From positions 1 through 20,642 of the IMG/VR virus record IMGVR_UViG_3300025120_000720: DNA of 20,642 nt; one strand, 5' to 3'. Numbering within the stretch: position 1 is the first letter of the stretch; each line of letters opens with the position of its first letter. Made by a program: the position numbers and the translations under genes. The notes under the pieces were generated by a model. That model was not told the DNA's origin. It did no database searches and saw only the letters and a list, made by a program, of their open reading frames with translations. Positions 2,522-18,248 of the stretch are shown here, piece after piece. Source of the stretch: a virus.

Positions 2522-3082
2522 TTAAAGTTCCTTGAACTTTCTCTGTATGTCGGTGTTGGGCAGTTTTGACTGTAGAAGCTTTTTCAATCTTGCCAGCAGT
2601 TGTGCTTGGGTTTTTGTGTCTAGGTTGGTGTAGTCGGCCACGGCCCGTCTCACGGTACGGTAGTTGGCGTCTCTTATGTTCAGTGCCCTTTCTAACTGTG
2701 TTAAATTTTTAAAATGATCTTCCCATGTCCTCAGGTATCTCCTCACAGCCATAACGGGCAGTGGTTGTCTCTGTCTCATGGCCTGTGCTTGATTCTTGTC
2801 CTTCAATTTCTTCGTTATCTCTGGATCACCTGACACTATGGCCAGCATGTTGGCTAGGTCGTTATTCACTATCCTGACCTGATCGAATGTGCCTCTAGCC
2901 ATGGTTTGATTTGAGTACTGCTTGGCGAATGTTTTGGTGTCATTACTCTGACTCATCACTGCCAACGCTAGGAAACTGAGATATATCCTTTCTGTAACTT
3001 CTGGGAATGTGAATCTCTCCAAGTCACTATGTCTCCTAATGACCTTGCCCTCAGATACATACTTTAAAAAAGGTGTTAACAT
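2522..3082 (-). CDS. Hypothetical helical phage protein (186 aa)
   Basis: Not recognised. The sequence is helical and basic towards the C-terminus (QAQLLARLKKLLQSKLPNTDIQRKFKEL), without signal peptide or membrane segment. The frame is open further upstream, to an ATG at 3145, but the start at 3082 (MLTPFLKYVSEGK) is preferred: a perfect TATAAATA box lies 5 nt before it, and the longer version would run through the promoter and into the divergent glycosyltransferase gene. The family of charged cores with an N-terminal motif of this kind often sits next to DUF6267-like genes in marine phages, but I cannot name it. It is followed after 2 nt by the FkbM gene. Confidence 0.75.
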   Translation of the reverse strand: MLTPFLKYVSEGKVIRRHSDLERFTFPEVTERIYLSFLALAVMSQSNDTKTFAKQYSNQTMARGTFDQVRIVNNDLANMLAIVSGDPEITKKLKDKNQAQAMRQRQPLPVMAVRRYLRTWEDHFKNLTQLERALNIRDANYRTVRRAVADYTNLDTKTQAQLLARLKKLLQSKLPNTDIQRKFKEL

Positions 3083-3087
3083 ACGGG

Positions 3088-3095
3088 TATTTATA
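3088..3095. promoter_or_regulatory. Late promoter TATAAATA (minus), possibly shared by the divergent plus-strand gene
   Basis: On the minus strand TATAAATA ends 5 nt before the ATG at 3082. Read on the plus strand the same 8 bp are TATTTATA and end 6 nt before the ATG at 3102. The near-palindromic element therefore sits at the characteristic distance from both divergent starts. Only the minus-strand reading is a perfect consensus. Confidence 0.65.
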
Positions 3096-3101
3096 GAGCA
3101 T

Positions 3102-4127
3102 ATGCAAAGGAATTTTATTCTCACAGACATAATGAAGACTGGCAATCACAGCAGGCTGGAACAGTTCATTAACCTACATAGTCTAACCGATCAAACTTTT
3201 GACCTGGAAGGGGAGTACTATACTCTACACAACTACGATCTGGATAATTATGACCGGAAGTTTGCCATAATAGATGTAAGATATGCAAACGACAGGTTGA
3301 AAGACAACACTGAGTTCCACACAGAACTAAAAAGACGTTGCGAATTACTGCACAGCCAGGGATTTGTTTTTATAAAATCAAACCCATGGGAATCACTGGA
3401 AAACATTAAGAACACTCCACAGCATCCTGAGATAGAAATAGATCATATCAAGTGGACAGGAGGAGTCAGTTGGTTCTGGTGTTACATGTACAACAAACAC
3501 AAGGATAAAACTTTCAACTTTGATCACTCAAATAAAAAATATGACTTTTTGTATCTAAACAAACAACCTAGGGAACACAGAAAAAAACTATACAGCAAGT
3601 TGACAAGCAAAGAAACACTGTCCAACAGCATATACACTAATTGGCCAGATAGAAAGTTGCCAGCGGCGTATGAACTACCATGGGCACAGGACTATCCGAT
3701 GTATGGCATGGACCAAGACATTTTTGAAAAGCCATATAATGATACTGCCTGTTCGATAGTGTCAGAGACCAATGACAACGACTATGAGGTGTTCATGACA
3801 GAGAAGATATGGAAACCAATCATAGGCCAACAAGTTTTTGTAGTGCATGGCAACTACCTATACCTACAGCGGTTGAGAGACATGGGTTTCAAAACCTTTA
3901 ACAGCTACTTCGAAGAAGCATATGACTTGGATAAGGATACAGATACCAGGATCAATACTATTGTAGATGTGTGTGATCGTTTACGTGAAGCACCATGGCA
4001 AGACATCTACCTGCACACGAAAGCATTAAGGAAACACAACCATGATACATTTTTCAACAAGGAAAAGTTAAGTTTGGAGATTGATAAGACTTTAAATCTA
4101 TTTCTTGAATTTGCTGATAGCCGTTAA
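3102..4127 (+). CDS. Putative glycosyltransferase, GT10 (fucosyltransferase)-like C-terminal region (341 aa)
   Basis: The C-terminal half carries the pattern seen in GT10-like and related viral glycosyltransferases: a strand-rich start (KYDFLYLNKQPREHRKKLY, about 146-164), then TEKIWKPIIGQ (233-243), VFVVHGN, a leucine-rich stretch and GFKTF (262-266). In GT10 enzymes the equivalent region binds the nucleotide sugar. The N-terminal half is not recognised and may bind the acceptor. The frame is open upstream to 3009, but the ATG at 3102 is favoured because it clears the divergent gene and stands 6 nt from the shared late box; the ATG at 3132 is also possible. No Shine-Dalgarno is well placed. 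Its last 30 nt overlap the convergent gene ending at 4098. The donor and acceptor are unknown; virion or host-surface glycosylation is inferred. Confidence 0.7.
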   Translation: MQRNFILTDIMKTGNHSRLEQFINLHSLTDQTFDLEGEYYTLHNYDLDNYDRKFAIIDVRYANDRLKDNTEFHTELKRRCELLHSQGFVFIKSNPWESLENIKNTPQHPEIEIDHIKWTGGVSWFWCYMYNKHKDKTFNFDHSNKKYDFLYLNKQPREHRKKLYSKLTSKETLSNSIYTNWPDRKLPAAYELPWAQDYPMYGMDQDIFEKPYNDTACSIVSETNDNDYEVFMTEKIWKPIIGQQVFVVHGNYLYLQRLRDMGFKTFNSYFEEAYDLDKDTDTRINTIVDVCDRLREAPWQDIYLHTKALRKHNHDTFFNKEKLSLEIDKTLNLFLEFADSR

Positions 4128-5315
4128 GTTCCTTCTAGAAAATCCTAATCTATCTACTAGTTTGACAGCATTACCTGCCTTGTCCACGGCAACGAAACCT
4201 TCTGGTTCAGTTACTTGTAGTCCATTGTCTGTTTGTGAGAATGAGCCTATGGCCATTGCTTGGTTCATCTTCTTGAGAACGAATCCTTTCATCTGCTGTA
4301 CTGCCTTGTAGAAAGTCAGCATGGCCTGTAAAGGTTTCTTGGCCTTGTTAAGGAACACGGGCATCTGTTTCATCTTGTCCTGCCTTAGTTGTAAGGCCTT
4401 CTGTGCCTTTAGTCCCGACATCTGTTGTTGCATTCTGTCCGCATAGAACTTTCTAAATCCTTGCAAGAACTGATTCACGTTGCTTGGTAGTTGGCCTTGT
4501 CTGACCATCGCATTGATGTACATCATAAATGTAGGTACAAAGTCCGTGTTCTGTCCTAGCACAGATGCTAGGTCTCTTGGGACACCATTGAGTAGTGTTT
4601 CTAGTTTCTCAATGCTGTTGTAGAATTGTTTCGTTTCGTCATCTGTAAATTTAGCACTACCTGATACATCTTTGTAGGTTGCGTTATCAAAGAACACTGA
4701 ACTATTTTTTACAAATGAACTTACATCTGCCCCGCCCTGGGCATTCATATCTGCCAATGAGTCACCTGTGTAAGTTGTGTGGAATATGATTCCTACCTTG
4801 GCCACATCAATTTGCTTGGCTAATTCTGATTCTTCTGGAACTGCATATGTAATTTGATTGGGTGTAAAAGTTAAGTGAGGTTTGCCACTAATATTTTTTC
4901 TTGTGATATCCTCATCTGTGTACAGTAAGTCGCCTTGCACCACCCCTTGTATGTTAAGTTTTTTTAAATGCACAAGACATTTCAACAACTTCTGCCCCAG
5001 TTCATCCGTGCCGTGATTGTTTGCAATATCTTTTTTAGTGTAATTTATTTTTGGAGTGCCTGGATTGAAAACTGATTTCGTACCTACAAAGAACTTGCCA
5101 TTGTCTGGATTGGTACCACACACCACAGCTGGTGCACCGTCCCACTTGACTGACACACTCATGGCTTCTGAGCTTGTGCCTTTAAGTGTGAGTAGTAGTC
5201 CCCTGAAGTATTCCACCACAGCCTGTCCGCCCACATAGCCATCGGTGATTATGATGTCCTCTATGTGTTCCAGGTGAGTCCTCTTGAATTCTGTAAGGAC
5301 GTCTTCTATCAACAT
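4098..5315 (-). CDS. DUF6267-like phage protein with KWDG nucleotidyltransferase-like motif (405 aa)
   Basis: The N-terminal 200 residues resemble a protein family common in T4-like marine phages (I recall it as DUF6267; from memory, not searched). They include VSVKWDGAPAVV (K57-W-D-G60), FFVGTKSVFN, GVVQGDLLYT (124-133) and KVGIIFHTTYTG (173-184). K-x-D-G followed by an acidic G-D/E-L segment is also the arrangement of motifs I and III in ATP-dependent DNA/RNA ligases and capping enzymes, so a divergent covalent nucleotidyltransferase fold is possible. The C-terminal half is helical and Gln/Lys-rich. The start (MLIEDVLTEF) has a GAGGA Shine-Dalgarno and lies 2 nt after the stop of the upstream 99-aa gene. 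Both are read from the late box at 5624. Confidence 0.75.
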   Translation of the reverse strand: MLIEDVLTEFKRTHLEHIEDIIITDGYVGGQAVVEYFRGLLLTLKGTSSEAMSVSVKWDGAPAVVCGTNPDNGKFFVGTKSVFNPGTPKINYTKKDIANNHGTDELGQKLLKCLVHLKKLNIQGVVQGDLLYTDEDITRKNISGKPHLTFTPNQITYAVPEESELAKQIDVAKVGIIFHTTYTGDSLADMNAQGGADVSSFVKNSSVFFDNATYKDVSGSAKFTDDETKQFYNSIEKLETLLNGVPRDLASVLGQNTDFVPTFMMYINAMVRQGQLPSNVNQFLQGFRKFYADRMQQQMSGLKAQKALQLRQDKMKQMPVFLNKAKKPLQAMLTFYKAVQQMKGFVLKKMNQAMAIGSFSQTDNGLQVTEPEGFVAVDKAGNAVKLVDRLGFSRRNLTAISKFKK

Positions 5316-5317
5316 GA

Positions 5318-5617
5318 TTAATCCTCTCGGTATTCGCCGTCTTTGATTTTCAGTACGTTGTTCTTGATGTCTTGGTTCTCTTTGATGCGAGCGACACCTC
5401 TCGAGAACTTATTTGCATCCATGTTCTTTATCGCTGAATTGAACTTCTTCTCTAGTTTGAATGCAGTCTCCTGGTCAAAATTCTCTCTGATATATGTCAT
5501 CAGTCTTATAGCTGACTCAAGTATGTGTGAGGCTCTACTCTCTACCACCTCCTCCTTGTCCCGGTGTAGGGGCATTGAGCTTAATTCTTCTAATAGGCTT
5601 CTAGTATGTTTTTGCAT
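5318..5617 (-). CDS. Small conserved phage protein (99 aa)
   Basis: Helical, charged protein (SHILESAIRLMTYIRENFDQETAFKLEKKFN then a KFSRGVARI segment) of a kind I have seen next to DUF6267-like genes in marine T4-like phages; function unknown. No membrane segment or cysteine. The ATG at 5617 is preceded by a late box (AGTAAATA on the minus strand) ending 6 nt upstream and there is no Shine-Dalgarno. It ends 2 nt before the DUF6267-like start, so the two form a late operon. Confidence 0.75.
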   Translation of the reverse strand: MQKHTRSLLEELSSMPLHRDKEEVVESRASHILESAIRLMTYIRENFDQETAFKLEKKFNSAIKNMDANKFSRGVARIKENQDIKNNVLKIKDGEYRED

Positions 5618-5623
5618 TGTAGG

Positions 5624-5631
5624 TATTTACT
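5624..5631 (-). promoter_or_regulatory. Late promoter box AGTAAATA, 6 nt before ATG
   Basis: The minus strand reads AGTAAATA then CCTACA and the ATG at 5617. It drives the 99-aa protein and the DUF6267-like gene. Confidence 0.65.
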
Positions 5632-5650
5632 TCTTATTGTAACACAATTT

Positions 5651-5694
5651 AAGTATAAGTCTACTCATTTCACTTTCCTGTAGACAAAATACTT
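5651..5694 (-). terminator. Interrupted hairpin around the stop codon of the methyltransferase gene
   Basis: Two nested inverted repeats (AAGTAT...ATACTT and GTCTAC...GTAGAC, separated by 2-3 A residues on each side) enclose 15 nt that contain the stop codon at 5665-5667. It could be a 3'-end processing hairpin or a weak terminator of the operon read from 7798. There is no T run after it, so termination is not certain. Confidence 0.35.
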
Positions 5695-6327
5695 ACGTTT
5701 ATTGCTATCATCTCTTATATCAAGCACTTTGAGATTGAACATCTCTGCTAATTCTATGATAAATGGCACGTTCCATGCATAGAACTCTATCCATTTGGCT
5801 TCTGGTTTATCATGTTGTACACCCGGGTTAACCCTGAAGAACATCATGCCACCATCTTCTAGCATGTTCACACACTTGGAAACTTCTGCTATGATCTTGT
5901 TACGACCTCCAAAGTTAATAGACCCTAGGGCAAGTATTATATCAAACTTTTCGATGGATCTGTATTCCAAGATATCAATCTTGTGATCAGCACGATCGTT
6001 GTATGGATCTACACCAATCAAGTTATGTATCTTGCCTTTGAATTCGTTGTATCCACAACCAACATCTAGTACTGCTCTAGGTTTCATGTCGTTTATTTGA
6101 TCTATTAGTGCTAGTCCGGAGTGTTTCCACTTCTTCATGTCGTGGTCCCAGTGATCGGCGAAGTATTTGTGTAAACACTTGATATCTATGTTGGTGGCAT
6201 AGTCAACAAGATTGAGATGTTTGCTATCAACATCCACATCAAATGTTTCCTTGATCATTTGTTGTGTAACTTTAGACACATCGTTGCCTGTTTTGTTTAC
6301 AAGTTCTGCGAAAATCTTCCTATTCAT
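5665..6327 (-). CDS. Class I SAM-dependent methyltransferase, paralogue 1 (220 aa)
   Basis: The SAM-binding motif I is LDVGCGYN (87-94), followed by GVDPYND as the acidic strand and FDIILALGSINFGG as motif IV-like. It is a paralogue of the 190-aa protein at 9182-9754, which shares HSG(L/D), the (D/E)xIN(D/N)(M/L)KP segment, GCG, FKGKI/LKGKI, NLIG(V/Y)DP and ILALGS(I/V)N in the same order. The longer frame to 6462 is rejected because the ATG at 6327 forms an 8-nt overlap with the stop of the upstream sulfotransferase-like gene (ATGAATAG), a typical coupled start. The N-terminal about 60 residues are helical and absent from the paralogue. Substrate unknown; the operon with a P-loop protein and a 2OG oxygenase suggests modification of a small molecule, glycan or lipid. 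Confidence 0.85.
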   Translation of the reverse strand: MNRKIFAELVNKTGNDVSKVTQQMIKETFDVDVDSKHLNLVDYATNIDIKCLHKYFADHWDHDMKKWKHSGLALIDQINDMKPRAVLDVGCGYNEFKGKIHNLIGVDPYNDRADHKIDILEYRSIEKFDIILALGSINFGGRNKIIAEVSKCVNMLEDGGMMFFRVNPGVQHDKPEAKWIEFYAWNVPFIIELAEMFNLKVLDIRDDSNKRKYFVYRKVK

Positions 6328-6910: not shown

Positions 6911-6922
6911 TAACTAATATTA

Positions 6923-7792
6923 CTATGAATCTTTATGTATGTCAAGATCGTGTGTAGAATCTTTAGTGGTACCTTCTATAAATTTCCAAGTCTTGTCTGT
7001 CGTCCTACCAGTGAATTGCAGGATGTACCTTGTGTCCCAGCCCATGTTGGCCGTACCGTGGGGATAGTCTTGCCAGTGCCAACTAATTACATCACCTGCC
7101 TTCCAGTGAGTGTGTATTGCTGTGCCTTGGTGCCATATCTGTCCTATGCTCCAATCATTTAAGAACACAACAAATCTGTGTACTTTCTTTGGATCCACAT
7201 CGTAGTCCAGTTCATCAAAACTGTTTTGTCTGTCTAGTCTTGCGGCAAAATTATCCATGTGCATGTGTAATAGTTGTCCACACACTTGTGAGTGCAACTT
7301 CAATTCGTAATCATAAAGTCCAAACAGGCCTTCAGCAAGTGCTATTGCTTTGGGGTCTGTGAACATGTTTGCTCTGCCATATATCTTGCCTTCGGGATCT
7401 CCACCTGATCTCACAATGTCATACACTTCTTGATCTATGCCGTAATTGTTACCAACACTTTTGTTTCTACTTGCCCAGTGAACAGCATTATCGAGAGCGG
7501 CGTCACCGTAGGTGTTTATAAAATAATCACAATCCATGTTGACATTACCATGGAACATTAAGACATCTTCTATGTTGTCTTTCTTGGTCCAGTCAAAGTG
7601 GTATGCACCTCTTTCTAAACTTCTTTTCTTTTCAAAATCCCAACGACTTTTACCATACTCAAGTTTCTTACCTGTAGTTTCAGCTGTCATTTTTGAATGT
7701 GCTTTCAAGTTTTTGATTGCTTCATCTGAATCTTGTAGATCGTCATCTATCTTTTTAAGTACATCAGTTTTATAGTCTTTTGTGTTATCCAT
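6923..7792 (-). CDS. 2OG-Fe(II) oxygenase family protein (289 aa)
   Basis: A double-stranded beta-helix dioxygenase is indicated by HMHMDN (H178-x-D180, iron ligands), about 65 residues later the distal His in YPHGTAN (H245), and R255 in WDTRYILQF, the usual 2-oxoglutarate-binding arginine 10 residues after the distal His. HWKAGDVISWHW just before is the strand typical of phage members. The first about 60 residues are charged and helical, probably a coiled coil, and are not part of the fold. The ATG at 7792 follows a GTTAAATA late box by 5 nt and has no Shine-Dalgarno. It is the first gene of an operon with the sulfotransferase-like protein and methyltransferase 1. Substrate unknown; hydroxylation of a protein, nucleobase or glycan precursor is possible. 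Confidence 0.85.
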   Translation of the reverse strand: MDNTKDYKTDVLKKIDDDLQDSDEAIKNLKAHSKMTAETTGKKLEYGKSRWDFEKKRSLERGAYHFDWTKKDNIEDVLMFHGNVNMDCDYFINTYGDAALDNAVHWASRNKSVGNNYGIDQEVYDIVRSGGDPEGKIYGRANMFTDPKAIALAEGLFGLYDYELKLHSQVCGQLLHMHMDNFAARLDRQNSFDELDYDVDPKKVHRFVVFLNDWSIGQIWHQGTAIHTHWKAGDVISWHWQDYPHGTANMGWDTRYILQFTGRTTDKTWKFIEGTTKDSTHDLDIHKDS

Positions 7793-7797: not shown

Positions 7798-7805
7798 TAT
7801 TTAAC
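7798..7805 (-). promoter_or_regulatory. Late promoter box GTTAAATA, 5 nt before ATG
   Basis: The minus strand reads GTTAAATA then TCAAT and the ATG at 7792. It follows the terminator at 7812-7845 directly, a terminator-promoter pair like those at 886-934 and 14744-14790. Confidence 0.7.
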
Positions 7806-7811: not shown

Positions 7812-7845
7812 AAAAAGGGCGAACAAATTAATGACCGCCCTTTTA
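7812..7845 (-). terminator. Rho-independent terminator (GGGCG/CGCCC type), minus strand
   Basis: A 9-bp perfect stem (AAAAGGGCG at 7813-7821 with CGCCCTTTT at 7836-7844) and a 14-nt loop, followed on the minus strand by a run of five T. It ends the transcript of the diiron protein gene. It is a near copy of the terminator at 898-934. Confidence 0.85.
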
Positions 7846-8579: not shown

Positions 8580-8587
8580 TATTTACC
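8580..8587 (-). promoter_or_regulatory. Late promoter box GGTAAATA, 28 nt before ATG
   Basis: On the minus strand GGTAAATA lies upstream of the Shine-Dalgarno AGGAG (8558-8562) and ATG (8551) of the diiron protein gene. It stands back to back with the plus-strand box at 8605. Confidence 0.6.
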
Positions 8588-8604: not shown

Positions 8605-8612
8605 ATTAAATA
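8605..8612 (+). promoter_or_regulatory. Late promoter box ATTAAATA, 8 nt before ATG
   Basis: ATTAAATA followed by GTTGGCAA and the ATG at 8621 of the glutamine amidotransferase gene. Confidence 0.6.
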
Positions 8613-8620: not shown

Positions 8621-9205
8621 ATGAAAATATTGATAAGCCAAATAGAATACATCAAGCCCGTCAGAAACTTCGTTTTTGATGCATTAGAACGTTCATACTA
8701 TCGGTTTTTAGCAGGCCACACACTGTTGCCTGTGCCCAATATGATAAAAGTACCGGATGTTGAATATGATTGCTTGATATTGACCGGAGGACCTGATAGT
8801 GTGGCTAGGAACCAAACAGAGAATTTGCTATATCAAGATGCTGTTGAGAAGGGAAAACCTATAGTAGGAATATGCCATGGTGCATTTGTGATCAATGATC
8901 TGTGTGGTGGAAAACTTGGCTCCATAGAAGGACATGTGGACAAGGATACTGAGATAACCTTAGAGGGAAACAAAAAAACTGTCAAATGTTATCATTCACA
9001 ATCAATAAAGGCATTAGCCGAAGACTTTGTTGCCATAGCACATGACAATGACGGGAACATAGAAGCATTCAAGCACAAGACACTTCAAGTATATGGAATT
9101 GTATGGCACCCGGAAAGAATGGACGAGCCAGTATTGCCTAGTGAGGTTGCTGACCTTTTAAGGACAGATCATCTTGATTTATTAAACCTCTTTCCTACGA
9201 TATAG
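8621..9205 (+). CDS. Class I glutamine amidotransferase-like protein (194 aa)
   Basis: A triad-type glutaminase/hydrolase domain: TGGPDS (55-60, oxyanion region), nucleophile elbow GICHGAF (C85), and WHPER with H163 and E165 as the rest of the triad. Class I domains release ammonia from glutamine, or hydrolyse gamma-glutamyl compounds when they stand alone (PuuD type). No synthase domain is fused, so the protein is either a free-standing hydrolase or partner of an enzyme elsewhere. The start at 8621 (MKILISQIEY) is preferred to the open frame from 8552, because an ATTAAATA late box lies 8 nt before it and the domain begins with this strand. It is divergent from the diiron gene and its last 24 nt overlap the convergent methyltransferase 2 gene. 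Confidence 0.85.
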   Translation: MKILISQIEYIKPVRNFVFDALERSYYRFLAGHTLLPVPNMIKVPDVEYDCLILTGGPDSVARNQTENLLYQDAVEKGKPIVGICHGAFVINDLCGGKLGSIEGHVDKDTEITLEGNKKTVKCYHSQSIKALAEDFVAIAHDNDGNIEAFKHKTLQVYGIVWHPERMDEPVLPSEVADLLRTDHLDLLNLFPTI

Positions 9206-9766: not shown

Positions 9767-11203
9767 TTATGCGTAGTCTATCCCTCTGTTTTTTTGTGTT
9801 ATACTTCTGTATACTAGAATGAGCACCAATGATAGCAACACAAGGAACAACGGTCTTGTCATCATTTCCTCTATGGTGTACATGGTGTTCATTTGTTGTA
9901 GTTTGTTTTGCCACTTGTCTATAATGATGTACGTTAAAAGTATTGCAGGTCTGCTTATTCTAAATTTGTAACAGAACAATCCCAATGCACTGCAACAGGC
10001 CAATGTCACATAGTCCATGTACAAACCTGTGACTGATTGACAGGTGTAAATTATTATAGCAAATATTATTCCAGCATATATCCAGTAAGGAATTTGTAAT
10101 ATCTTAACAAGAATTCTAGAAGTAAAGATACAGATAAAGAAAGTCAGTATGGTTGCCCCAACGAAGCCATACCCTAGTAGGGATATAAACTTCTTGTCTT
10201 CGAGCATGAAAGGATTACCTACATCAAGTCCAAATGTGATACACATGGCCATGAAGATTGCGGCGAATGGTGATGCTGGTATTCCAAACAGCACGGTAGG
10301 GATCAGACTGCCGGCCTTCTGGGCGTTGTTGGCTCCCTCACACCCTGCAAGTCCTTTGGGATTGCCCACTCCAAACTTGTCACTAGGGTGTGCCTTCACT
10401 GTGGCACCATAGGCCAGCATGTCCCCCACGGGTCCTACTCCGGGTAGCATACCTGCAACGAATCCTATGAAGCCTCCACGCAGTGAATCTTTCCATAATC
10501 TTATTGTTGTCCGGAAGCCGGCGAACAGTTGTGAGAAGTAATTGTTGATAGGTGCAGGTCTGTTCTTTCCAAGATGGAAACCTGATATCAGTTCTGGGAT
10601 ACCAAACAGTCCTGCTATCATCATGATGATCGGCACACCATCCTGTAGGTACAGTGTTCCGAATGTTAATCTTGGGCCACCTGTCTGTGGATCAATTCCC
10701 ATGAGTCCTATGAAAGAGCCAATCAGTATTGCACCAATACTCAACCAGAAACTCTTAGAAACTATGAATGCCACACAGGCAATTGATAGCGTCATGAACA
10801 TGAACAGTTCCGGCACACCAAACTTATAAATGATCGGTGCGTAGAATGGCAACAGTGCGAAAGCAAGAAGTCCAAAGAATATGCCGTTGAACGTGCTGTC
10901 CAACATGGCTATTCCTATCGCTTTGCCGGCCTCTCCATTCTTACTCATTTGATATCCGTCTATGATAGATGCCGCTGTGGTTGAAGCACCTGGTATACCT
11001 GTGAGTAGTGATGTGTATGAGTCTGCTGTACTGGATGCCGCTATGACACTTATTAAAAATATAAGTCCGTAGTAGGGATTTGGTTCAAAGTATCCTGCGA
11101 ATGAGAATACTAGTAGCATCGCAGTTCCGGCGCCTGCCATTGGGATCACACCTAACAGTATTCCGTAGAGTGTTCCTAGCAGGCACCAGAGTGCGTAGTC
11201 CAT
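9767..11203 (-). CDS. tctA: Tripartite tricarboxylate transporter permease, TctA family (478 aa)
   Basis: The large inner-membrane permease of a tripartite tricarboxylate transporter, which imports carboxylates by secondary transport using a periplasmic binding protein. About 10-12 hydrophobic segments are visible. Family signatures are all present: GVIPMAGAG (18-26), TGIPGAST with IIDGYQMSKNGEAGKA (68-95), GIDPQTGGPRLTFG (about 168-181), LRGGFIGFVAGMLPGVGP (about 242-259), EGANNA and LFGIPASP (about 290-312). The length is normal (about 500) and no frameshift is seen, so it looks functional. The start overlaps the tctC stop as TAATG, i.e. translationally coupled. No TctB-like four-helix subunit is found in this window, so the small membrane subunit may come from the host or be dispensable. 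A transporter permease in a phage context is unusual. Confidence 0.93.
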   Translation of the reverse strand: MDYALWCLLGTLYGILLGVIPMAGAGTAMLLVFSFAGYFEPNPYYGLIFLISVIAASSTADSYTSLLTGIPGASTTAASIIDGYQMSKNGEAGKAIGIAMLDSTFNGIFFGLLAFALLPFYAPIIYKFGVPELFMFMTLSIACVAFIVSKSFWLSIGAILIGSFIGLMGIDPQTGGPRLTFGTLYLQDGVPIIMMIAGLFGIPELISGFHLGKNRPAPINNYFSQLFAGFRTTIRLWKDSLRGGFIGFVAGMLPGVGPVGDMLAYGATVKAHPSDKFGVGNPKGLAGCEGANNAQKAGSLIPTVLFGIPASPFAAIFMAMCITFGLDVGNPFMLEDKKFISLLGYGFVGATILTFFICIFTSRILVKILQIPYWIYAGIIFAIIIYTCQSVTGLYMDYVTLACCSALGLFCYKFRISRPAILLTYIIIDKWQNKLQQMNTMYTIEEMMTRPLFLVLLSLVLILVYRSITQKNRGIDYA

Positions 11204-12261
11204 TATTTCAATAGTTCAGGTTTAAATTCAGCCTTCCAACCAAATATATTATTGAACCACCAAACAAGATTTTTAAGTTTCTTCTCAGTGTATTGTTTTC
11301 TCTGTTCTAAAACTATCTTGTCTGCTTTTTCACCTATCGCCCATTTGTAGTCACCGCCTGATGCTTTGGCAATGATTGCTCTTGACTCGGGATCTTTAAG
11401 CATTTTCTTAAGTGCTTTCACAAGTTCTTTCCTGTGAGGAGCATCTTTGTTAACCCATAAACCTTTTTGTAATGAGTCGTTTTGGAACTGTACTAACCTG
11501 TATGCTTCATACAATTCACCGCTAGGTTTTTCACCCCATGTCTTTTTGAACACAGTGTCAAAGTCATAACCTTTTGCGTTAGGGTTAGTTACGATTTTGT
11601 TTCTCTTTGCATCGTAAACACCTTGAGTGAACCAAAGTTCTCCATGCTCGAACTTCTTGATCTTCTTAGTCCATGCAGTTGGGTTACCTCTGAACACATT
11701 GAACTCACCGTTAGCGAACATCAATGTACCTTGCTTGTCATTTACACCTTTGACGTATTTCATGTCTTCGTCCACACATTTTTTGTATGATGCGATCTTG
11801 CCGTCAAGGTTACCACAGTACATAAGCACCATTCCTGTGACGTCACCTGCCGCGTGGTCGTTTCCGAATACCATGCCGCCGTTCTTTGGATCCCAGTCTT
11901 TTCTCTTGCCTACGAAGATGTCCAACAACTGTACTCCAATTGCGTCCCAATTTCTGTAGTCATACTCAACACCTGTTTTCACAAGTGTGTTCACGGTAGT
12001 AGTACCACCTGTGACTGTGATTGCATTTTCTTTGAATCTGTTGTCCTTGTTCCATTTGTTCATACCTATTAGGTGTCTTGCTCCTGGAATGTGGACTGAC
12101 TTGACATCACCATCCACGTGTTTCTTAAGTTCTTTTATTACCACTTGTGCCCATTGGTCCAACCCTGAACCTGGCTTCGTAGGAAGATAAATTGTGTAGT
12201 CTGCTATGGCTGATGTAGCCATGAATAAAGCAACTGCCACTACTGTTACTATTTTTTTCAT
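11203..12261 (-). CDS. tctC: Tripartite tricarboxylate transporter substrate-binding protein, TctC-like (352 aa)
   Basis: A periplasmic solute receptor of the TctC/Bug type. Residues 1-20 form a Sec signal peptide (MKKIVTVVAVALFMATSAIA, likely cleaved before DYTIYLPTKPG). The mature start follows the family pattern of a beta strand and a glycine-rich loop (PTKPGSGLDQWAQ), and ITVTGGTTTVN is the next ligand-loop region. Two cysteines at about 150 and 163 (YCGNLDG...KKCVDED) could form a disulfide. It is about 30 residues longer than usual TctC. The ATG at 12261 has an AAAGGA Shine-Dalgarno. A TTGACC/17/TAATAT promoter lies at 12289-12317, so it would be transcribed early by host polymerase. 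The ligand cannot be told: tricarboxylates, dicarboxylates and other organic acids are all used in this family. Confidence 0.88.
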   Translation of the reverse strand: MKKIVTVVAVALFMATSAIADYTIYLPTKPGSGLDQWAQVVIKELKKHVDGDVKSVHIPGARHLIGMNKWNKDNRFKENAITVTGGTTTVNTLVKTGVEYDYRNWDAIGVQLLDIFVGKRKDWDPKNGGMVFGNDHAAGDVTGMVLMYCGNLDGKIASYKKCVDEDMKYVKGVNDKQGTLMFANGEFNVFRGNPTAWTKKIKKFEHGELWFTQGVYDAKRNKIVTNPNAKGYDFDTVFKKTWGEKPSGELYEAYRLVQFQNDSLQKGLWVNKDAPHRKELVKALKKMLKDPESRAIIAKASGGDYKWAIGEKADKIVLEQRKQYTEKKLKNLVWWFNNIFGWKAEFKPELLK

Positions 12262-12436: not shown

Positions 12437-12444
12437 ATTAAATA
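12437..12444 (+). promoter_or_regulatory. Late promoter box ATTAAATA, 5 nt before ATG
   Basis: ATTAAATA then CTTTT and the ATG at 12450. Confidence 0.65.
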
Positions 12445-12449: not shown

Positions 12450-12890
12450 ATGAAACTGAGTCGGCAACAACAATACCGGATGTACTCACACCATGATCAT
12501 GACATAGACAGCCTGGACGAAGAGTTCTGGCCAGTGCTTGGCATATTGTTAGCCATACTAGGTGTGTGGACAGGCTTTGTACATTATGTCGATCACTTTA
12601 CCATGGACTTAATACCATGGTGGGCAGAGCCTTTCACTATCATACCTGTTGTGTTCATGTTCATAATGAAGGAACGATTTGACTCACTCAATCCACTACA
12701 CTGGTGGCCCATGTTATGGGGTTACCAGGCCCGACTACCAGACGAGGACAGGATAACAATAAGACCCCTGGACACAGAGAGGATAATGCAACAGCACGGT
12801 GGTAGGTTGAACGTGTACATTATAGACTACCAACACATCAAGTTCCGTAGGAAGAAGGATGCTGTTATTTTTGGTCTGAGATATTTCTAG
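12450..12890 (+). CDS. Two-TM hypothetical membrane protein (146 aa)
   Basis: Unrecognised. The N-terminus is basic then His/Asp-rich (MYSHHDHDIDSLDEE, about 11-25). Two hydrophobic segments follow (FWPVLGILLAILGVWTGFV, 26-44, and FTIIPVVFMFIM, about 61-72), then a Trp-rich turn (LHWWPMLWGY) and a basic C-terminal domain of about 60 residues (HIKFRRKKDAVIFGLRYF). The His/Asp cluster could bind metal. The frame is open to 12339, but the ATG at 12450 is chosen because an ATTAAATA box ends 5 nt before it. It is not TctB: that family has four helices and another layout. It overlaps the convergent 70-aa gene by 26 nt. A holin, spanin-like or envelope-associated role cannot be excluded. Confidence 0.7.
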   Translation: MKLSRQQQYRMYSHHDHDIDSLDEEFWPVLGILLAILGVWTGFVHYVDHFTMDLIPWWAEPFTIIPVVFMFIMKERFDSLNPLHWWPMLWGYQARLPDEDRITIRPLDTERIMQQHGGRLNVYIIDYQHIKFRRKKDAVIFGLRYF

Positions 12891-13223: not shown

Positions 13224-13252
13224 ATAATATAGTAGACAGAATATATAGTCAA
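13224..13252 (-). promoter_or_regulatory. Sigma70-like promoter TTGACT-17-TATTAT
   Basis: On the minus strand the -35 TTGACT (13247-13252) and -10 TATTAT (13224-13229) have an ideal 17-nt spacer and 5/6 matches each. It reads the 46-aa and 70-aa genes. The -10 ends 6 nt before the ATG, so the transcript may be nearly leaderless. A late box for the opposite gene lies 8 bp beyond the -35. Confidence 0.65.
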
Positions 13253-13260
13253 GTATATAA

Positions 13261-13268
13261 TGTAAATA
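13261..13268 (+). promoter_or_regulatory. Late promoter box TGTAAATA, 5 nt before ATG
   Basis: TGTAAATA then ATATT and the ATG at 13274 of the DUF1178 gene. Confidence 0.65.
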
Positions 13269-13273
13269 ATATT

Positions 13274-13687
13274 ATGATAAAATATCAACTTAGATGTAGG
13301 TGCACACACGAGTTCGAGGGTTGGTTCCCAGACAGCAAAGAATACAAACGACAAAAGAACAAGGGCATGATCAACTGTCCCATGTGTGATAGCACGGCAG
13401 TAGACAAAGCTATCATGGCACCAAACGTAAAGACTTCCAAAAAGCAAAACATACCAGAGGACTACTTTGTAATGGGAGAAAGTGCAGAACAGATATTGCA
13501 GAAGTTGAACAAGAAGATCAAGAAAGACTTCCAGGATGTTGGTAAGAACTTCGCCAAGGAGGCCAGGAAAGCACACAAAGGCAAACGAGATCAGAAGTTC
13601 TACGGTAAACCCACCAAAGAAGAGACCAACAAACTGTTGGACGAGGGCATAGACCTGTTCGCAGTGCCTGACTACAAGGACAATTGA
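13274..13687 (+). CDS. DUF1178 family protein (137 aa)
   Basis: The N-terminal 50 residues match the DUF1178 pattern: MI-x-Y-x-L-x-C start, HEFEGWF, a Ser-x-x-Y segment, then CPMCDST and the KAIMAP motif. The cysteines at 8, 10, 36 and 39 could form a small zinc ribbon. DUF1178 is a cellular protein family of about 150 residues, mainly alphaproteobacteria and other proteobacteria, of unknown function. The C-terminal half here is Lys-rich and ends in DLFAVPDYKDN. An ATG at 13274, 5 nt after a late box, marks the start; there is no Shine-Dalgarno. The last 16 nt overlap the convergent sulfotransferase-like gene. Presence in a phage suggests capture from a host. Confidence 0.85.
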   Translation: MIKYQLRCRCTHEFEGWFPDSKEYKRQKNKGMINCPMCDSTAVDKAIMAPNVKTSKKQNIPEDYFVMGESAEQILQKLNKKIKKDFQDVGKNFAKEARKAHKGKRDQKFYGKPTKEETNKLLDEGIDLFAVPDYKDN

Positions 13688-14199: not shown

Positions 14200-14245
14200 A
14201 TGATGTACTTAACCAAACCTAATAATCACGTCATTTTTTGCATGG

Positions 14246-14274
14246 TTGACACAATACACTTTCTAGTATATAAT
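14246..14274 (+). promoter_or_regulatory. Consensus sigma70 promoter TTGACA-17-TATAAT
   Basis: Perfect -35 (14246-14251) and -10 (14269-14274) hexamers with an ideal 17-nt spacer: the strongest host-type promoter in the window. The expected start is near 14281. It drives the basic protein gene that ends at 14731. Confidence 0.9.
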
Positions 14275-14359
14275 TGTAAACATGGAACGTAGGATAACAG
14301 AGAATGAAACTCCAGAGTTACGTAACCATATAACAATAAATCAAGGAAAAGGACACAAT

Positions 14360-14731
14360 ATGCTAAAAAGTATGTTCAATACACTTTTTCCTTCTATTAA
14401 AAAGGAAGAAAAAACCATGGCAAACTCAACACAATACGTTGTATACACAAGAAACTTCAAATCAAAAGCGAAGCAAATTGGTGTATTCGCGGAGCCGGCA
14501 TCTACTTACAAAGTAAACGGTGAAGTACACGGTGGTAAAATCAAGTTCAGAAACCTAGCGGTTAAATCAACTGCAAGAAAAACAGCTACTAACAAGTTGT
14601 TATCAAAAGGTTTAGACTTTACAGTAGAAGTATTAGGTGTTGCACCTAAGAACTCTGCTTTGACTATGAAGTCAAACATCATTTCTTTATTGAAGAAATC
14701 AGGAAGAAAAGTTATCAATTACTCTGCGTAA
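14360..14731 (+). CDS. Basic hypothetical protein, early gene (123 aa)
   Basis: Unrecognised. The core (from MANSTQYVVYTRNF) is strand-rich and rich in Lys, Ser and Thr (SKAKQIGVFAEPAS, KFRNLAVKSTARKTATNKLLSKG, LLKKSGRKVINYSA), with no membrane segment or cysteine; it could bind nucleic acid, on charge alone. Three in-frame ATGs compete: 14282, directly at the expected transcription start; 14360, with AAAAGGA 6 nt upstream; and 14417, with AAGGAAG 8-10 nt upstream. I chose 14360, which gives a hydrophobic N-terminal extension (MLKSMFNTLFPSIKKEEKT); 14417 is a good alternative and may be the conserved start. A perfect sigma70 promoter precedes it and a strong terminator follows it, so it is an independent early unit between late genes. 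Confidence 0.75.
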   Translation: MLKSMFNTLFPSIKKEEKTMANSTQYVVYTRNFKSKAKQIGVFAEPASTYKVNGEVHGGKIKFRNLAVKSTARKTATNKLLSKGLDFTVEVLGVAPKNSALTMKSNIISLLKKSGRKVINYSA

Positions 14732-14743
14732 TTGATTAATTCC

Positions 14744-14776
14744 AAAGGGGCGGTAGGCAACTATCGCCCTTTTTTT
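14744..14776 (+). terminator. Strong rho-independent terminator with GCAA tetraloop
   Basis: A stem of about 13 bp (AAAGGGGCGGTAG with CTATCGCCCTTTT, two G-U pairs) closed by a GCAA tetraloop of the stable GNRA class, followed by seven T. It ends the early basic-protein gene and shares the GGGCG/CGCCC stem core with the terminators at 898 and 7812. The late box of the radical SAM gene starts 6 nt later. Confidence 0.92.
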
Positions 14777-14782
14777 GTGGCC

Positions 14783-14790
14783 GTTAAATA
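14783..14790 (+). promoter_or_regulatory. Late promoter box GTTAAATA, 5 nt before ATG
   Basis: GTTAAATA then CTACT and the ATG at 14796. Confidence 0.7.
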
Positions 14791-14795
14791 CTACT

Positions 14796-15692
14796 ATGAA
14801 ACTATTACACGTAGAGGCCAGCACCTATTGTAATGCTAGATGCCCACTTTGTCCCAGAAGCCTGCACGGATACAAGGTTGAGGGGGTGTATCCTGAAGTC
14901 CATTTGAGTGTAGAAAAATTCAGAGAAGCATTGGAAAGATTCCCACACAGGGAATATGTTTACTTCAATGGTCATCTAGGTGACCCGATGATGAATCCAG
15001 CCATTGTCAAATTGGTAGAACTAACAAAATGTAGCACGTCTATCACAACGAATGGTAGCATAGGCACAAAAGAAACTTGGCAGTCACTAGCCAAACTAGG
15101 AATAGAGGGTAGGTTCAGCATAGATGGACTAGAGGACACAAATCATCTGTACAGACAGGATGTACAATGGAACAAAATCATGGAAAGAGCCAATTGGTTT
15201 ATCGCGGCGGGAGGCCATGCAACATGGAAATGGATTCCGTTCGCACACAACAAGCATCAAGAGAAACAGACAAGAGATCTTGCCTATAGGATGGGATTTG
15301 AAAAATTTTATGTGGAGGATCAGGGAAGAAGTTACGGCCCTGCCCTGGACAGGAAAGGAAACATAACCCATTGGATACTGCCCAAGGACGGTTCGTTGGA
15401 GCCTGGCAATTATGATGTGCCCGCAGGAATAAAAAGATACAAAGAAACACACAACAATTTTCAGCTAGAAGACAAGATATACGAAATAAATTGCGAACAC
15501 CTGCAGTTGAAAGACACATACATCAATGCCAAGGGTGAAGTATGTCCTTGTTGCTATCACGGATATGACATGCCTGAAAGACCGGTGGTGCTATTAGAAG
15601 ATCATCACAAGTTGATGAAGACATGGAAAACAAAGAAATGTAATCCTGTTTGTGCAAGTACCTGTGGTAATCGATTGAAAAAATTATACTAG
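14796..15692 (+). CDS. Radical SAM protein with SPASM-like C-terminal Cys cluster (298 aa)
   Basis: The [4Fe-4S] motif CNARCPLC (C12-x3-C16-x2-C19) with VEASTYC before it is the radical SAM signature. FNGHLGDPMMNP is the region where SAM-binding glycines occur, and SITTNG the following strand. The C-terminus has a second Cys set (NCEH, CPCC, KCNPVCASTC), as in SPASM/twitch enzymes that carry auxiliary iron-sulfur clusters. Such enzymes modify peptides, sugars or alcohols by radical chemistry; the substrate here is unknown. The ATG at 14796 is chosen over 14775 because a GTTAAATA box ends 5 nt before it. The gene end overlaps the convergent 128-aa gene by 9 nt. Confidence 0.88.
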   Translation: MKLLHVEASTYCNARCPLCPRSLHGYKVEGVYPEVHLSVEKFREALERFPHREYVYFNGHLGDPMMNPAIVKLVELTKCSTSITTNGSIGTKETWQSLAKLGIEGRFSIDGLEDTNHLYRQDVQWNKIMERANWFIAAGGHATWKWIPFAHNKHQEKQTRDLAYRMGFEKFYVEDQGRSYGPALDRKGNITHWILPKDGSLEPGNYDVPAGIKRYKETHNNFQLEDKIYEINCEHLQLKDTYINAKGEVCPCCYHGYDMPERPVVLLEDHHKLMKTWKTKKCNPVCASTCGNRLKKLY

Positions 15693-16070
15693 GTGGTCTG
15701 AACTGTCTGCGAAGGCAACCACATTTGCTAAATCGCCCTTACACCAATTGCCAGCATTAAGCAGAGTCGTCTTTCTTGAATTGTACTGGCCGGACCAGTC
15801 ATCGTCGGCTGAGATTCCTGCAGTGCCTTTAGTACCAAAAGCGAAAGTTGTTTTCAACTGTGTGTTATCACCGTTTCCGTCTGCTTTCAACTCCCACAAA
15901 AGAACCGTGCAACATTCGTCCATCACTGTCAAAGCGTCATCTGTGAAAAAGAAGGCCTTAGCCGCGTTCACATTGGCAAAAGTTGTCAATGCAGTTGAAC
16001 CGTCATCAACCTGAGATATAATCTTGGTTTGCTTGTTGTGTACTCCGTATGTATTGTCCGAGTTTGGCAT
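15684..16070 (-). CDS. Small secreted-type or structural hypothetical protein (128 aa)
   Basis: Not recognised. Ala/Thr/Asn/Asp-rich and strand-like (TTFANVNAAKAFFFTDDALTVMD, KTTFAFGTKGTAGISADDDWSG) with three cysteines (DECCTVL, NWCKGD). Composition and a perfect late box suggest an abundant virion protein. The TATAAATA box at 16076-16083 ends 5 nt before the ATG at 16070 and overlaps the stop codon of the upstream dehydrogenase gene. There is no Shine-Dalgarno and no signal peptide. Similarity to the paralogous pair at 958-1823 is not evident, although both are small and Thr/Ala-rich. Confidence 0.7.
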   Translation of the reverse strand: MPNSDNTYGVHNKQTKIISQVDDGSTALTTFANVNAAKAFFFTDDALTVMDECCTVLLWELKADGNGDNTQLKTTFAFGTKGTAGISADDDWSGQYNSRKTTLLNAGNWCKGDLANVVAFADSSDHLV

Positions 16071-16075
16071 AAACG

Positions 16076-16083
16076 TATTTATA
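16076..16083 (-). promoter_or_regulatory. Late promoter TATAAATA, 5 nt before ATG
   Basis: A perfect consensus on the minus strand, then CGTTT and the ATG at 16070. It overlaps the stop codon (16079-16081) of the upstream gene. Confidence 0.75.
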
Positions 16084-17263
16084 ATATTTCTTTACCATAA
16101 TGTACCACATTAGCCGCGGGAGGATAGGTCCTCCATGGATCGAATATGATAGTGCTGTCATCAGCAGTGAATTCGTCTGACTCGTGTACTCTAACTATGA
16201 CTTCAACCGGGGTATCAATGCCGTTTGCCAGCTGGCCACCGTGCTTTTGTACATAGTATTGCACCAACAAAGAGCTGGATCCATCCACTAGCTCTGTTCC
16301 TGCTTTGTAAGAATCTGACGAGAACCATATGTTTTTACCGTGTTCAAGTATAGCAAGTGCCATGTTCTCAGCCTGCTTCTCACGTGCGGTCATTATTGTC
16401 TCGAACATGTCGTAACCAAGATCAAGGTCCTTGGCCAGCCAACGCAGTGCGATGTTGTCTCGGGGGTGGCATGCACCTCCATCTCCCATGCCCGCTTTCA
16501 TGTATGCCGGACTGACTATCCGTTGTGTGCTTTTGGCAAGTGCCTGTGTGACTGTGTCCACGTTCATGTTGCCCAGACGGTGTGCAACATCCTGTATCAT
16601 GTTGACCAGTGCAATCTTGTTGCTGATGAATGTGTTGTAGAATATCTTCATTGCTTCTACTTCTTCCCATGTGCCAAACTCCATCCTTGGATAGTCATCA
16701 CACACTTGGTTATAGAATGCTTCTAGTTGCTGTGCTTTGTAGGCAGTTTCATACACACCTTTCTTTGTGCCTATCATAATCATCTCAGGATTGATCATGT
16801 CTTCTGCCACTGTGCCCATTGCAATGAGATATGGATTGTACAACAGTTTGACATTGGTAACCAAAGGTGCCAACTCTCTCCTTATGGTGCCAGGCAACAC
16901 GGTTGATATAAGCACCAGACTCTGCGTCACCCCCATGTGGGTGTTGCACTCGGTCAATACCTTCTTGACAGAATCGTAATTGAAATCTTTAACTTGCCTG
17001 TGGCTTGTGGGTTCTCTGCCATCGTATCCTTCTTCGTGTGGTGTTGGTGTTGCCACAAACACAATATCTCTGTCTCTGCAAAGGTCTTCTATTGAATCCC
17101 TAATCTCTACAAGGTCACTTGATTTGTGTGCGATATCGTATCCTGCGACATGGAATCCTTTTTTCCTTATGGCCTCCGCACATGGCATACCCAATTTGCC
17201 TAGGCCTATGAAGCCAATCTTCTCTCCGTATATAATTGGTTTACCAAAGAATGATTCTAGCAT
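16079..17263 (-). CDS. UDP-glucose/GDP-mannose dehydrogenase family protein (394 aa)
   Basis: An NAD-dependent nucleotide-sugar dehydrogenase: two-step oxidation of the C6 hydroxyl to a uronate. The NAD motif is GFIGLGKLGMP (17-27), then VFVATPTP (68-75), LISTVLPGT (118-126), EAMKIFYNTFISNKIALVN (203-221, with K206 and N210 at the catalytic positions), and GGACHPRDN with catalytic Cys265 (262-270). The C-terminal domain ends in IIFDPWRTYP, the DxWR element. All key residues are present, so it is probably active. Length is near the usual 400-430. The N-terminal 15 residues before the NAD strand are a small extension. No Shine-Dalgarno or late box is obvious; a tandem 11-bp repeat lies at 17277-17298. 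It likely supplies a uronic acid sugar for virion or cell-surface glycans. Confidence 0.92.
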   Translation of the reverse strand: MLESFFGKPIIYGEKIGFIGLGKLGMPCAEAIRKKGFHVAGYDIAHKSSDLVEIRDSIEDLCRDRDIVFVATPTPHEEGYDGREPTSHRQVKDFNYDSVKKVLTECNTHMGVTQSLVLISTVLPGTIRRELAPLVTNVKLLYNPYLIAMGTVAEDMINPEMIMIGTKKGVYETAYKAQQLEAFYNQVCDDYPRMEFGTWEEVEAMKIFYNTFISNKIALVNMIQDVAHRLGNMNVDTVTQALAKSTQRIVSPAYMKAGMGDGGACHPRDNIALRWLAKDLDLGYDMFETIMTAREKQAENMALAILEHGKNIWFSSDSYKAGTELVDGSSSLLVQYYVQKHGGQLANGIDTPVEVIVRVHESDEFTADDSTIIFDPWRTYPPAANVVHYGKEIL

Positions 17264-17276
17264 ATGTTCTTAGTTA

Positions 17277-17298
17277 TGGCTCGCTATTGGCTCGCTAT
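17277..17298. repeat. Tandem 11-bp direct repeat (2 copies)
   Basis: TGGCTCGCTAT occurs twice head to tail in the short gap between the dehydrogenase gene and the 78-aa basic gene, just upstream of the dehydrogenase ATG. Confidence 0.8.
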
Positions 17299-17318
17299 TG
17301 CATCTTTGATTTGGAACT

Positions 17319-17555
17319 TTATTTTGAGTAGTCTGGCAGAGGTCCACCGTACTTCTGTCCCTTGATACGCTTGCCGGCCACCTTCTTGGTCTTGCCGCCA
17401 ATCTTCTCACTACGGTTGCCCGTACGCTTCATCTTGCCCTTGCTCTTGCAACTGCTGATCCATGACGCTGGCAGTTTGCTCTTGGGCCTTGAACAGGCAC
17501 CGGCTGGTGCTGGGCCTATGTTCTCGTCTGTGTTGTAAACTTCGTATATCTTCAT
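17319..17555 (-). CDS. Small basic protein with Cys pair (78 aa)
   Basis: Contains ACSRPKSKLPASWISSCKSKGKMKRTG, then KIGGKTKKVAGKRIKGQKYGGPLPDYSK, with over 20% Lys/Arg. I believe this C-terminal GG-K-V-x-GK-x-IKG-x-KYGGPLPDY type recurs in marine T4-like phages, but I cannot name a family. The ATG at 17555 (MKIYEVYNTDENIG) is chosen over 17603, since a GTTAAATA box ends 8 nt before it and the divergent protein begins with a similar MKITEV. No membrane segment. Nucleic-acid binding or a virion-core role is inferred from the charge. Confidence 0.72.
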   Translation of the reverse strand: MKIYEVYNTDENIGPAPAGACSRPKSKLPASWISSCKSKGKMKRTGNRSEKIGGKTKKVAGKRIKGQKYGGPLPDYSK

Positions 17556-17563
17556 CGCACGTG

Positions 17564-17571
17564 TATTTAAC
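17564..17571 (-). promoter_or_regulatory. Late promoter box GTTAAATA, 8 nt before ATG
   Basis: Minus strand GTTAAATA then CACGTGCG and the ATG at 17555. Confidence 0.6.
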
Positions 17572-17640
17572 ACATCCGTCCTGCTAGGGTTGATCTTGTG
17601 CAAAGGGTAGCACGACGTAACTTTCAGTTATCAGTTAAGG

Positions 17641-17697
17641 ATTAGGTTAAGCATTAGGTTAAGCATTAGGTTAAGCATTAGTATAAGCATTAGTAAG
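17641..17697. repeat. 12-bp tandem repeats (ATTAGGTTAAGC, iteron-like)
   Basis: Three perfect 12-bp units (17641-17676), a fourth with two changes (17677-17688) and a partial fifth (to about 17697). AT-rich and located between the divergent genes at 17555 and 17736, just upstream of the late box at 17723. The reader should not confuse it with a CRISPR array: there are no spacers. Confidence 0.85.
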
Positions 17698-17722
17698 GTT
17701 TAGTTTAGTTAGGTGTAAGGAC

Positions 17723-17730
17723 TATAAATA
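17723..17730 (+). promoter_or_regulatory. Late promoter TATAAATA, 5 nt before ATG
   Basis: Perfect consensus followed by CTCAT and the ATG at 17736. Confidence 0.78.
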
Positions 17731-17735
17731 CTCAT

Positions 17736-18248
17736 ATGAAGATCACAGAAGTAATCCTAGCGCCAAAAGAATCCAAACACACAGGATCTAGCGCCACAAC
17801 ATCTAGTGCCATCAAAGGCGATCAGACACAAGATGTAGTGCCACAAGATATAGTATCAGAAAATAATCTGGCACTGGAGGTTGACAGCATCGAGGAACAT
17901 CCAGACCATTCAGCCATCGCGGAAGGCGTGAGCCAGATCCTGAGGCGTACCAAAGGCAAAGCACCCAAGCAAGGATTCAGATGCTCATCCGGACCCAGGA
18001 AAGGTCGTATCGTGGCCAAACCAAGCACCTGTTTCCAGAAGACTGACCCACAGAAGTCTGCAAAGATCAGGAAGAAGCGTCAGGCCAAGGCCGGAATAGC
18101 AGGCAAGAAACTGGCCATGACCAAGAGGTCTGGTGCGGGATCAAAAAGGTTACAGGGTGTCCAAATCAAAAAGGCCAAGAACAAAGGCAAGTCATTCAGA
18201 CCTAGAATGAAAGGTCGTTCTCCTATAAAATCTAAAATTGTGAAATAG
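17736..18248 (+). CDS. Very basic late protein with C-x14-C motif (170 aa)
   Basis: The N-terminal half (to about residue 65) is acidic/Ser-Thr-rich and probably disordered. The C-terminal half is strongly basic, with GFRCSSGPRKGRIVAKPSTCF (Cys-Ser-Ser-Gly-Pro-Arg-Lys-Gly-Arg, then a second Cys) followed by KSAKIRKKRQAKAGIAGKKLA and a Lys/Arg-rich tail. I have seen this GFRC-T/S-SGPRKGR-V/I-A-x-P-x-x-C layout in marine T4-like phages, without known function. A DNA-binding or capsid-core protein is plausible. It shares the MKI-x-EV start with the divergent 78-aa protein. The start is fixed by the TATAAATA box 5 nt upstream. Confidence 0.78.
   Translation: MKITEVILAPKESKHTGSSATTSSAIKGDQTQDVVPQDIVSENNLALEVDSIEEHPDHSAIAEGVSQILRRTKGKAPKQGFRCSSGPRKGRIVAKPSTCFQKTDPQKSAKIRKKRQAKAGIAGKKLAMTKRSGAGSKRLQGVQIKKAKNKGKSFRPRMKGRSPIKSKIVK

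Follow-up and report, generated by a model that had tools for sequence, protein, structure and literature searches.

Probable late promoter boxes and their genes in the window

The window analysed here is an IMG/VR record of 20.6 kb, in which TAAATA was listed on both strands and the distance was taken as the number of nucleotides between the box and the ATG. All 14 sites precede a correctly oriented gene, with zero orphan sites. Eleven boxes are found at 5 to 8 nt (seven at 5 nt, two at 6 nt and two at 8 nt), and the three others at 28, 51 and 60 nt. The TAAATA core is strict and the first two positions are loose, giving a TATAAATA-like late box. The box coordinates and box-ATG distances given by an earlier sequence-only reading of the same DNA were all correct. 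Of the box sequence that it proposed, the core held, whereas the full TATAAATA occurs only in front of genes 3082, 16070 and 17736 and of the leadered gene 1823 (genes are named by the position of their ATG).

At the 5-nt spacing on the minus strand, TATAAATA (3088–3095) precedes gene 2522–3082 (186 aa), the first gene at a divergent junction, GTTAAATA (7798–7805) precedes gene 6923–7792 (289 aa), and TATAAATA (16076–16083) precedes gene 15684–16070. The same spacing is observed on the plus strand for ATTAAATA (12437–12444) and gene 12450–12890, TGTAAATA (13261–13268) and gene 13274–13687 (DUF1178), GTTAAATA (14783–14790) and gene 14796–15692 (radical SAM), and TATAAATA (17723–17730) and gene 17736–18248. 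Two minus-strand boxes lie at 6 nt, CGTAAATA (886–893) before gene 349–879 (176 aa, function unassigned) and AGTAAATA (5624–5631) before gene 5318–5617, a member of the virion structural protein family PHROG 11854. The 8-nt boxes are ATTAAATA (8605–8612, plus strand), in front of the class-I glutamine amidotransferase gene 8621–9205, and GTTAAATA (17564–17571, minus strand), in front of gene 17319–17555. The late mRNAs of genes 879, 3082 and 7792 are predicted to be leaderless, and that of gene 5617 to be leaderless or to carry a 1-nt leader.

The three distant boxes are all on the minus strand. TATAAATA (1884–1891) lies 60 nt before ATG 1823, which has the Shine-Dalgarno aaggagg, and GGTAAATA (8580–8587) lies 28 nt before ATG 8551, which has aggag; the Shine-Dalgarno sequences are strong in both cases (gcaggagaaacat, aaggaggatttaaa). 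An additional box, AATAAATA (350–357), 51 nt upstream of ATG 298, was absent from the sequence-only reading.

Several other elements are visible in the window. A near-consensus sigma-70-like TAGACA-17-TATAAT (13233–13274, plus strand) overlaps the late box of gene 13274, and possibly this start is served by tandem early and late promoters. A short tandem array of GCATTAGGTTAA-like units occupies positions 17640–17700, immediately upstream of the 17736 promoter. A perfect TTGACA-17-TATAAT lies at 14246–14282 on the plus strand with an ATG (14282) right behind the −10; the gene behind it may start at a later ATG, MANSTQ (around 14418, Shine-Dalgarno-like AAGGAAG), and not at 14282.

Six of the short-spaced genes begin at divergent junctions, and three boxes (879, 7792 and 14796) lie 5 to 6 nt behind an intrinsic terminator. 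These terminators are located at 903–930 (AAGGGCGG...CGCCCTTTTTTTT, −13.4 kcal/mol, ending about 5 nt before the box of 879), at 7814–7843 (−12.8 kcal/mol, ending 5 nt before the box of 7792) and, on the plus strand, at 14744–14776 (−18.7 kcal/mol, ending about 6 nt before the box of 14796). The three hairpins were found by targeted folding, and a generic terminator scan missed all of them. Over three sequences, a terminator stands directly before 8 of 63 short-spaced genes versus 2 of 236 other ORFs (p 8e-5). At 879, 7792 and 14796, RNA polymerase coming from upstream would be halted immediately ahead of the box. A similar GC stem (GGGCG...CGCCC) is common to all three terminators, and a T run follows the 879 and 7792 hairpins on either strand, as if they were bidirectional.

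The boxes might be late promoters whose first gene is nevertheless translated mainly from longer read-through RNAs, the leaderless transcripts chiefly feeding the downstream genes. Read-through is frequent in phage genomes, and genes 5617 and 16070 sit behind co-oriented genes; for boxes placed in this way, leadered read-through transcripts may also exist. However, nine of the eleven short-spaced genes are first in their unit (six at divergent junctions, three directly behind a terminator), and the genes mostly lack a Shine-Dalgarno that a longer transcript could use. We consider this explanation improbable and favour translation of the predicted leaderless mRNAs themselves.

The phage lineage and the spacing of its boxes

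Megablast of the window against phages gave no match. By gene content it is linked through contigs G011, G013, G012 and G016 to contig G015: G013 and G012 overlap over about 20 kb in which their proteins are 100% identical, one G013 protein recurs at 100% identity in G016, and G011 and G015 come from one metagenome. Judged from these links, a jumbo T4-type phage is the source of the window, which represents a fragment of its genome; the predicted genome size of about 280 kb is estimated from the chained contigs. G015 encodes the T4-type core virion and replication genes gp23, gp17, gp18, gp20 and gp43, together with uvsX, gp13 and gp25. It also has a match to gp41 and a 326-aa homologue of gp55 (protein search, 31% identity and E 5e-13; profile, E 7e-19). 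The gp55 gene is located in G015/G017 and not in the window's own contig; a weak gp55 match at position 66142 of G012 was rejected on examination, the real homologue being that of G015. The clamp loader gp44 is present, while gp33 and gp45 gave no clear profile match in G015, G016 and G017, perhaps being too divergent. The lineage is neither cyanophage nor pelagiphage, because the gp23 of G015 is nearest to those of Sinorhizobium phage Phosso (73%), Vibrio phage 2.275.O (69%) and the PA5oct group (68%). An HTVC008M-like lineage was considered and dropped: it is mainly auxiliary and nucleotide-metabolism genes that match, and the core genes are distant.

Two further gene observations concern the lineage. 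On the minus strand of the window (9767–12261), TctA (PF01970) is followed by a TctC-like periplasmic protein recognised by eye, which makes a tripartite tricarboxylate transporter pair. No host was inferred from TctA, for which the nearest cellular protein found was 39% identical (an Omnitrophota MAG), and the HTVC008M peroxiredoxin compared with alphaproteobacterial genomes singled out no host group. In contigs G001, G002, G004, G005, G011 and G013, a small ORF beside hsp20 matches ribosomal protein bS21 (E 9e-7 to 7e-4). Since bS21 affects translation initiation, a phage copy beside a predicted leaderless programme is worth attention.

Within the window, TAAATA-N5-ATG was observed seven times versus 0.31 expected from dinucleotide shuffles, and TATAAATA-N5-ATG three times versus 0.02. 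Each genome set was also scanned without bias for every hexamer at every distance ahead of its ORF starts. TAAATA at 5 nt was the top hexamer/distance pair, above Shine-Dalgarno, in G015+G011, in G016+G012, in G001/G002/G004 with the window, and in Pelagibacter phage HTVC008M. Shine-Dalgarno hexamers led in T4, Melnitz, PA5oct, Vibrio 2.275.O and Phosso, the box enrichment of Syn9 peaked at about 21 nt, and the 5-nt box signal was not found in C48C1 and P-SSM2. G015+G011 had no site at 0–4 nt and 48 at 5–8 nt (Poisson p about 1e-35 for the enrichment). The ratio of sites at 5–8 nt to those at 9–44 nt was 48:34 in this pair, compared with 1:42 in Syn9, 5:53 in T4, 7:97 in PA5oct and 2:57 in Phosso (Fisher p 6e-10 or less each), and it was 16:25 in HTVC008M versus 4:41 in Melnitz (p 0.002). 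In HTVC008M, the 12 ATGs at 5 nt, among them those of gp2, gp4, gp53, gp25 and gp3, are all independently deposited gene starts. The 5′ ends predicted for these genes in the record KC465899 fall at positions 6280, 7562, 11972, 18943, 19456, 31132, 49760, 75559, 75830 and 142360 on the plus strand and at 18916 and 16007 on the minus strand. TAAATA occurs often in AT-rich DNA, and chance or base composition would be the simplest objection to the pattern; the excess over shuffles, the top rank in the scan and the Poisson value refute it and leave it a negligible probability. The spacing to which the sequence-only reading had drawn attention is thus far above random expectation, and it is enriched genome-wide at 5 nt, with a sharp lower edge, in the lineage and in HTVC008M.

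Conserved starts and the predicted +1

In 80 related IMG/VR contigs and the window, 621 TAAATA sites were counted; of these, 195 lie at 5 nt and 86 at 6 nt, compared with just six at 0–4 nt. The box lies exactly 5 nt from gene 3082 in 49/49 distinct orthologues, from gene 13274 in the 22/22 orthologues having the conserved Met, and from genes 7792 and 17736 in 6/6 orthologues each. It lies 8 nt from gene 17555 in 7/7 orthologues and 6 nt from gene 5617 in 47/53. Gene 879 is looser, with orthologue boxes at 5, 6 or 9 nt and the exact box missing in 18/44, and in the majority of the 12450 orthologues the box is replaced, at almost the same position, by variants such as TATATA or TAAGTA. Both states are found among the orthologues of 16070, with the box at 5–6 nt or at about 22–24 nt, the latter with AGGAG in between (three orthologues). 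The distant boxes of the leadered genes 1823 and 298 are kept in relatives at 61–63 and 49–50 nt, respectively.

The start codons were checked by aligning the 11 short-spaced proteins of the window with their orthologues. The alignments reach residues 1–3, and the Met is conserved in most of the 11 families. For seven genes the N-termini aligned from residue 1–3 in every orthologue (44/44, 49/49, 53/53, 6/6, 23/23, 7/7 and 6/6), and third-codon-position variability begins directly after the ATG, at codon 2. Because the N-termini are conserved from residue 1, these ATGs are real starts for most families; support is weakest for 14796 (Met conserved in 1/13) and 16070 (4/6). If the annotated ATGs were wrong and the true starts lay downstream, the mRNAs would have ordinary leaders. 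An alternative start with a Shine-Dalgarno-like match does occur at codon 21 of 3082 and at codon 24 of 5617, and the N-terminal conservation of 14796 is weak. The residue-1 alignments, the variability from codon 2 and the independently called starts of HTVC008M make such a displacement hardly credible, and we retain the annotated ATGs.

The T4 late box is numbered from its first T at −13 (PMC2988020), which places +1 at the sixth nucleotide after the box; counted from the box in this way, the T4 P23 sequence has T at −1 and G at +1 (PMC7892883). In the leadered promoters of the lineage, the sixth nucleotide is A in 70–75% of the dereplicated sites, and the leadered sites of Melnitz (15/15) and Syn9 (6/6) all have a purine there. 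The initiator base at this position in the leadered promoters would place the start independently of the ATG. The signal is weaker when the leadered class is weighted by family (A or G in 68%), probably because chance TAAATA sites are included. At the 5-nt spacing, the sixth nucleotide is the A of the ATG, and the ATG is preceded by C or T in 99% of cases (22 families, weighted), like T−1 in T4 P23. With 6 nt between box and ATG, a T often occupies the sixth position, and transcription would then begin either at the A of the ATG or one base ahead of that T. The cliff seen below 5 nt is what an intact AUG requires if +1 is set at the sixth nucleotide. The initiator base at the T4 +1 position, seen in leadered promoters too, is as expected for the predicted start at or near the A of the ATG. 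The proposal that transcription would begin at this A or within 3 nt of it fits the spacing, although genes at 7–8 nt would have 1–3 nt leaders and be near-leaderless only.

For the IMG/VR searches with patterns at 4, 5 and 6 nt, the comparison used the fraction of listed matches standing at an ORF start and not raw counts. In viral contigs L390–L469, TATAAATAC-N-GTATG, which places the TATAAATA box at 4 nt, opens an ORF of at least 50 aa in 62/81 among the matches listed. This set may represent a further spacing class; with the box 4 nt before the ORF start, it is at odds with a +1 held rigidly at the sixth nucleotide.

A box fixed relative to the ATG could also be a translation-level element, either an A/U-rich unstructured initiation region or a Kozak-like signal, and not a promoter. 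An A/U-rich upstream context aids non-Shine-Dalgarno initiation in some bacteria (PMC6847099). However, the same box with the same initiator base is found 20–63 nt upstream of Shine-Dalgarno genes, boxes mark unit starts behind terminators at the frequency given above, and the box is the known gp55 consensus in a lineage that encodes gp55. A translational role in place of a promoter is very unlikely on these grounds, and the boxes are treated below as promoters.

Two late-gene classes and known systems

A Shine-Dalgarno-like match precedes 2/49 short-spaced versus 18/34 long-spaced genes of the lineage (p 3e-7), and 3/33 versus 18/29 in G015 (p 1e-5). The lack of a good Shine-Dalgarno noted in the sequence-only reading is therefore confined to the short-spacing class, and its division into two translation classes agrees with the far-box genes often carrying one, as do 1823 and 8551 with boxes 60 and 28 nt away. 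The short-spaced class includes terminase, neck and baseplate genes. In G015, it comprises terminase gp17 (7 nt), gp25 (6 nt) and gp13 (5 nt, measured from a start that lies 20 codons inside the longest frame), while gp23 and gp18 carry a Shine-Dalgarno and the gp19 box, 10 nt away, overlaps one. HTVC008M has gp2, gp4, gp53, gp25 and gp3 at 5 nt, and gp18, gp19 and gp23 with a Shine-Dalgarno. The boxes found for those genes in Melnitz, C48C1, Syn9, P-SSM2 and T4 are mostly 15–43 nt off, Melnitz gp2 (5 nt) being an exception. The claim that leaderless mRNAs span most of the late programme was overstated, as a Shine-Dalgarno is retained by the abundant virion proteins of capsid (gp23), sheath (gp18) and tube (gp19) in the lineage and in HTVC008M; the genes with predicted leaderless late mRNAs form a large class within the programme and do not make up all of it.

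The box, its spacing and conservation, the lack of Shine-Dalgarno, the initiator base, the gene starts and the lineage's gp55 homologue can be read from the sequences themselves. We consider it likely that the boxes are gp55-type late promoters of the T4 family, serving one class of predicted leaderless mRNAs and a second, leadered class with Shine-Dalgarno. The −10-like element would span −13 to −6 and the promoter would abut the coding sequence, with +1 at the A of the AUG at the 5-nt spacing and probably often at 6 nt, or 1–3 nt before the AUG at 6–8 nt. Such mRNAs would have no room for a Shine-Dalgarno, and initiation would be leaderless, the ribosome recognising the 5′-terminal AUG. In the second class, which would include capsid, sheath and tube, the box or the operon position lies further upstream and a Shine-Dalgarno would be used. 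We infer an in vivo transcription start at this base and translation of the leaderless mRNA itself.

As the nearest cultured relatives of both lineages are without the 5-nt class, its parallel gain in the two lineages is the simplest reading of this small genome sampling. It appears evenly balanced whether the jumbo group and HTVC008M independently moved many gp55 promoters onto the start codon such that leaderless mRNAs for low-copy assembly parts and Shine-Dalgarno mRNAs for bulk virion proteins provide a built-in dosage control at the level of translation.

The analysis yields base-exact predictions for the 5′ ends of dozens of marine-phage late mRNAs, and one of these phages, HTVC008M, is cultured with its host, HTCC1062. 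If confirmed, a phage sigma factor would set the translation mode through promoter position, and these phages would be a tractable natural setting in which to study the conditions that favour leaderless initiation. Late-promoter prediction has been reported as unsuccessful in pelagimyophages (PMC7029224); this failure may be explained by methods made for cyanophages, which expect an intergenic box and a leader. In the literature searched, we found no description of a leaderless class in pelagimyophages, nor of leaderless late mRNAs in T4-type phages, for which a mention in the Syn9 start-site or PA5oct omics papers is possible.

The arrangement resembles T4 late transcription (gp55 sigma, gp33, gp45; TATAAATA at −13 to −6) in the box, the gp55 homologue of the lineage, the virion-gene targets and the +1 purine. 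It differs in that the boxed late genes of T4 mostly have leaders of about 10–30 nt, many with a Shine-Dalgarno, whereas the lineage has a large predicted class at 0–3 nt. HTVC008M (Kyanoviridae) shares the 5-nt class, with 12 genes, but its core genes are not closely related to those of the window lineage. The T4-type jumbo phages PA5oct/Paride, Vibrio 2.275.O and Phosso are the nearest cultured relatives by gp23 (68–73%), yet PA5oct, Vibrio 2.275.O and Phosso, the three scanned, display no box enrichment at 5–8 nt and are dominated by Shine-Dalgarno. Leaderless mRNAs are known from bacteria such as Caulobacter and mycobacteria and from single phage genes such as lambda cI. The mRNAs predicted here would likewise have a 5′-terminal AUG without Shine-Dalgarno; in those systems, however, the promoter is recognised by a host sigma factor, whereas here a phage late sigma factor would serve a whole class of genes.
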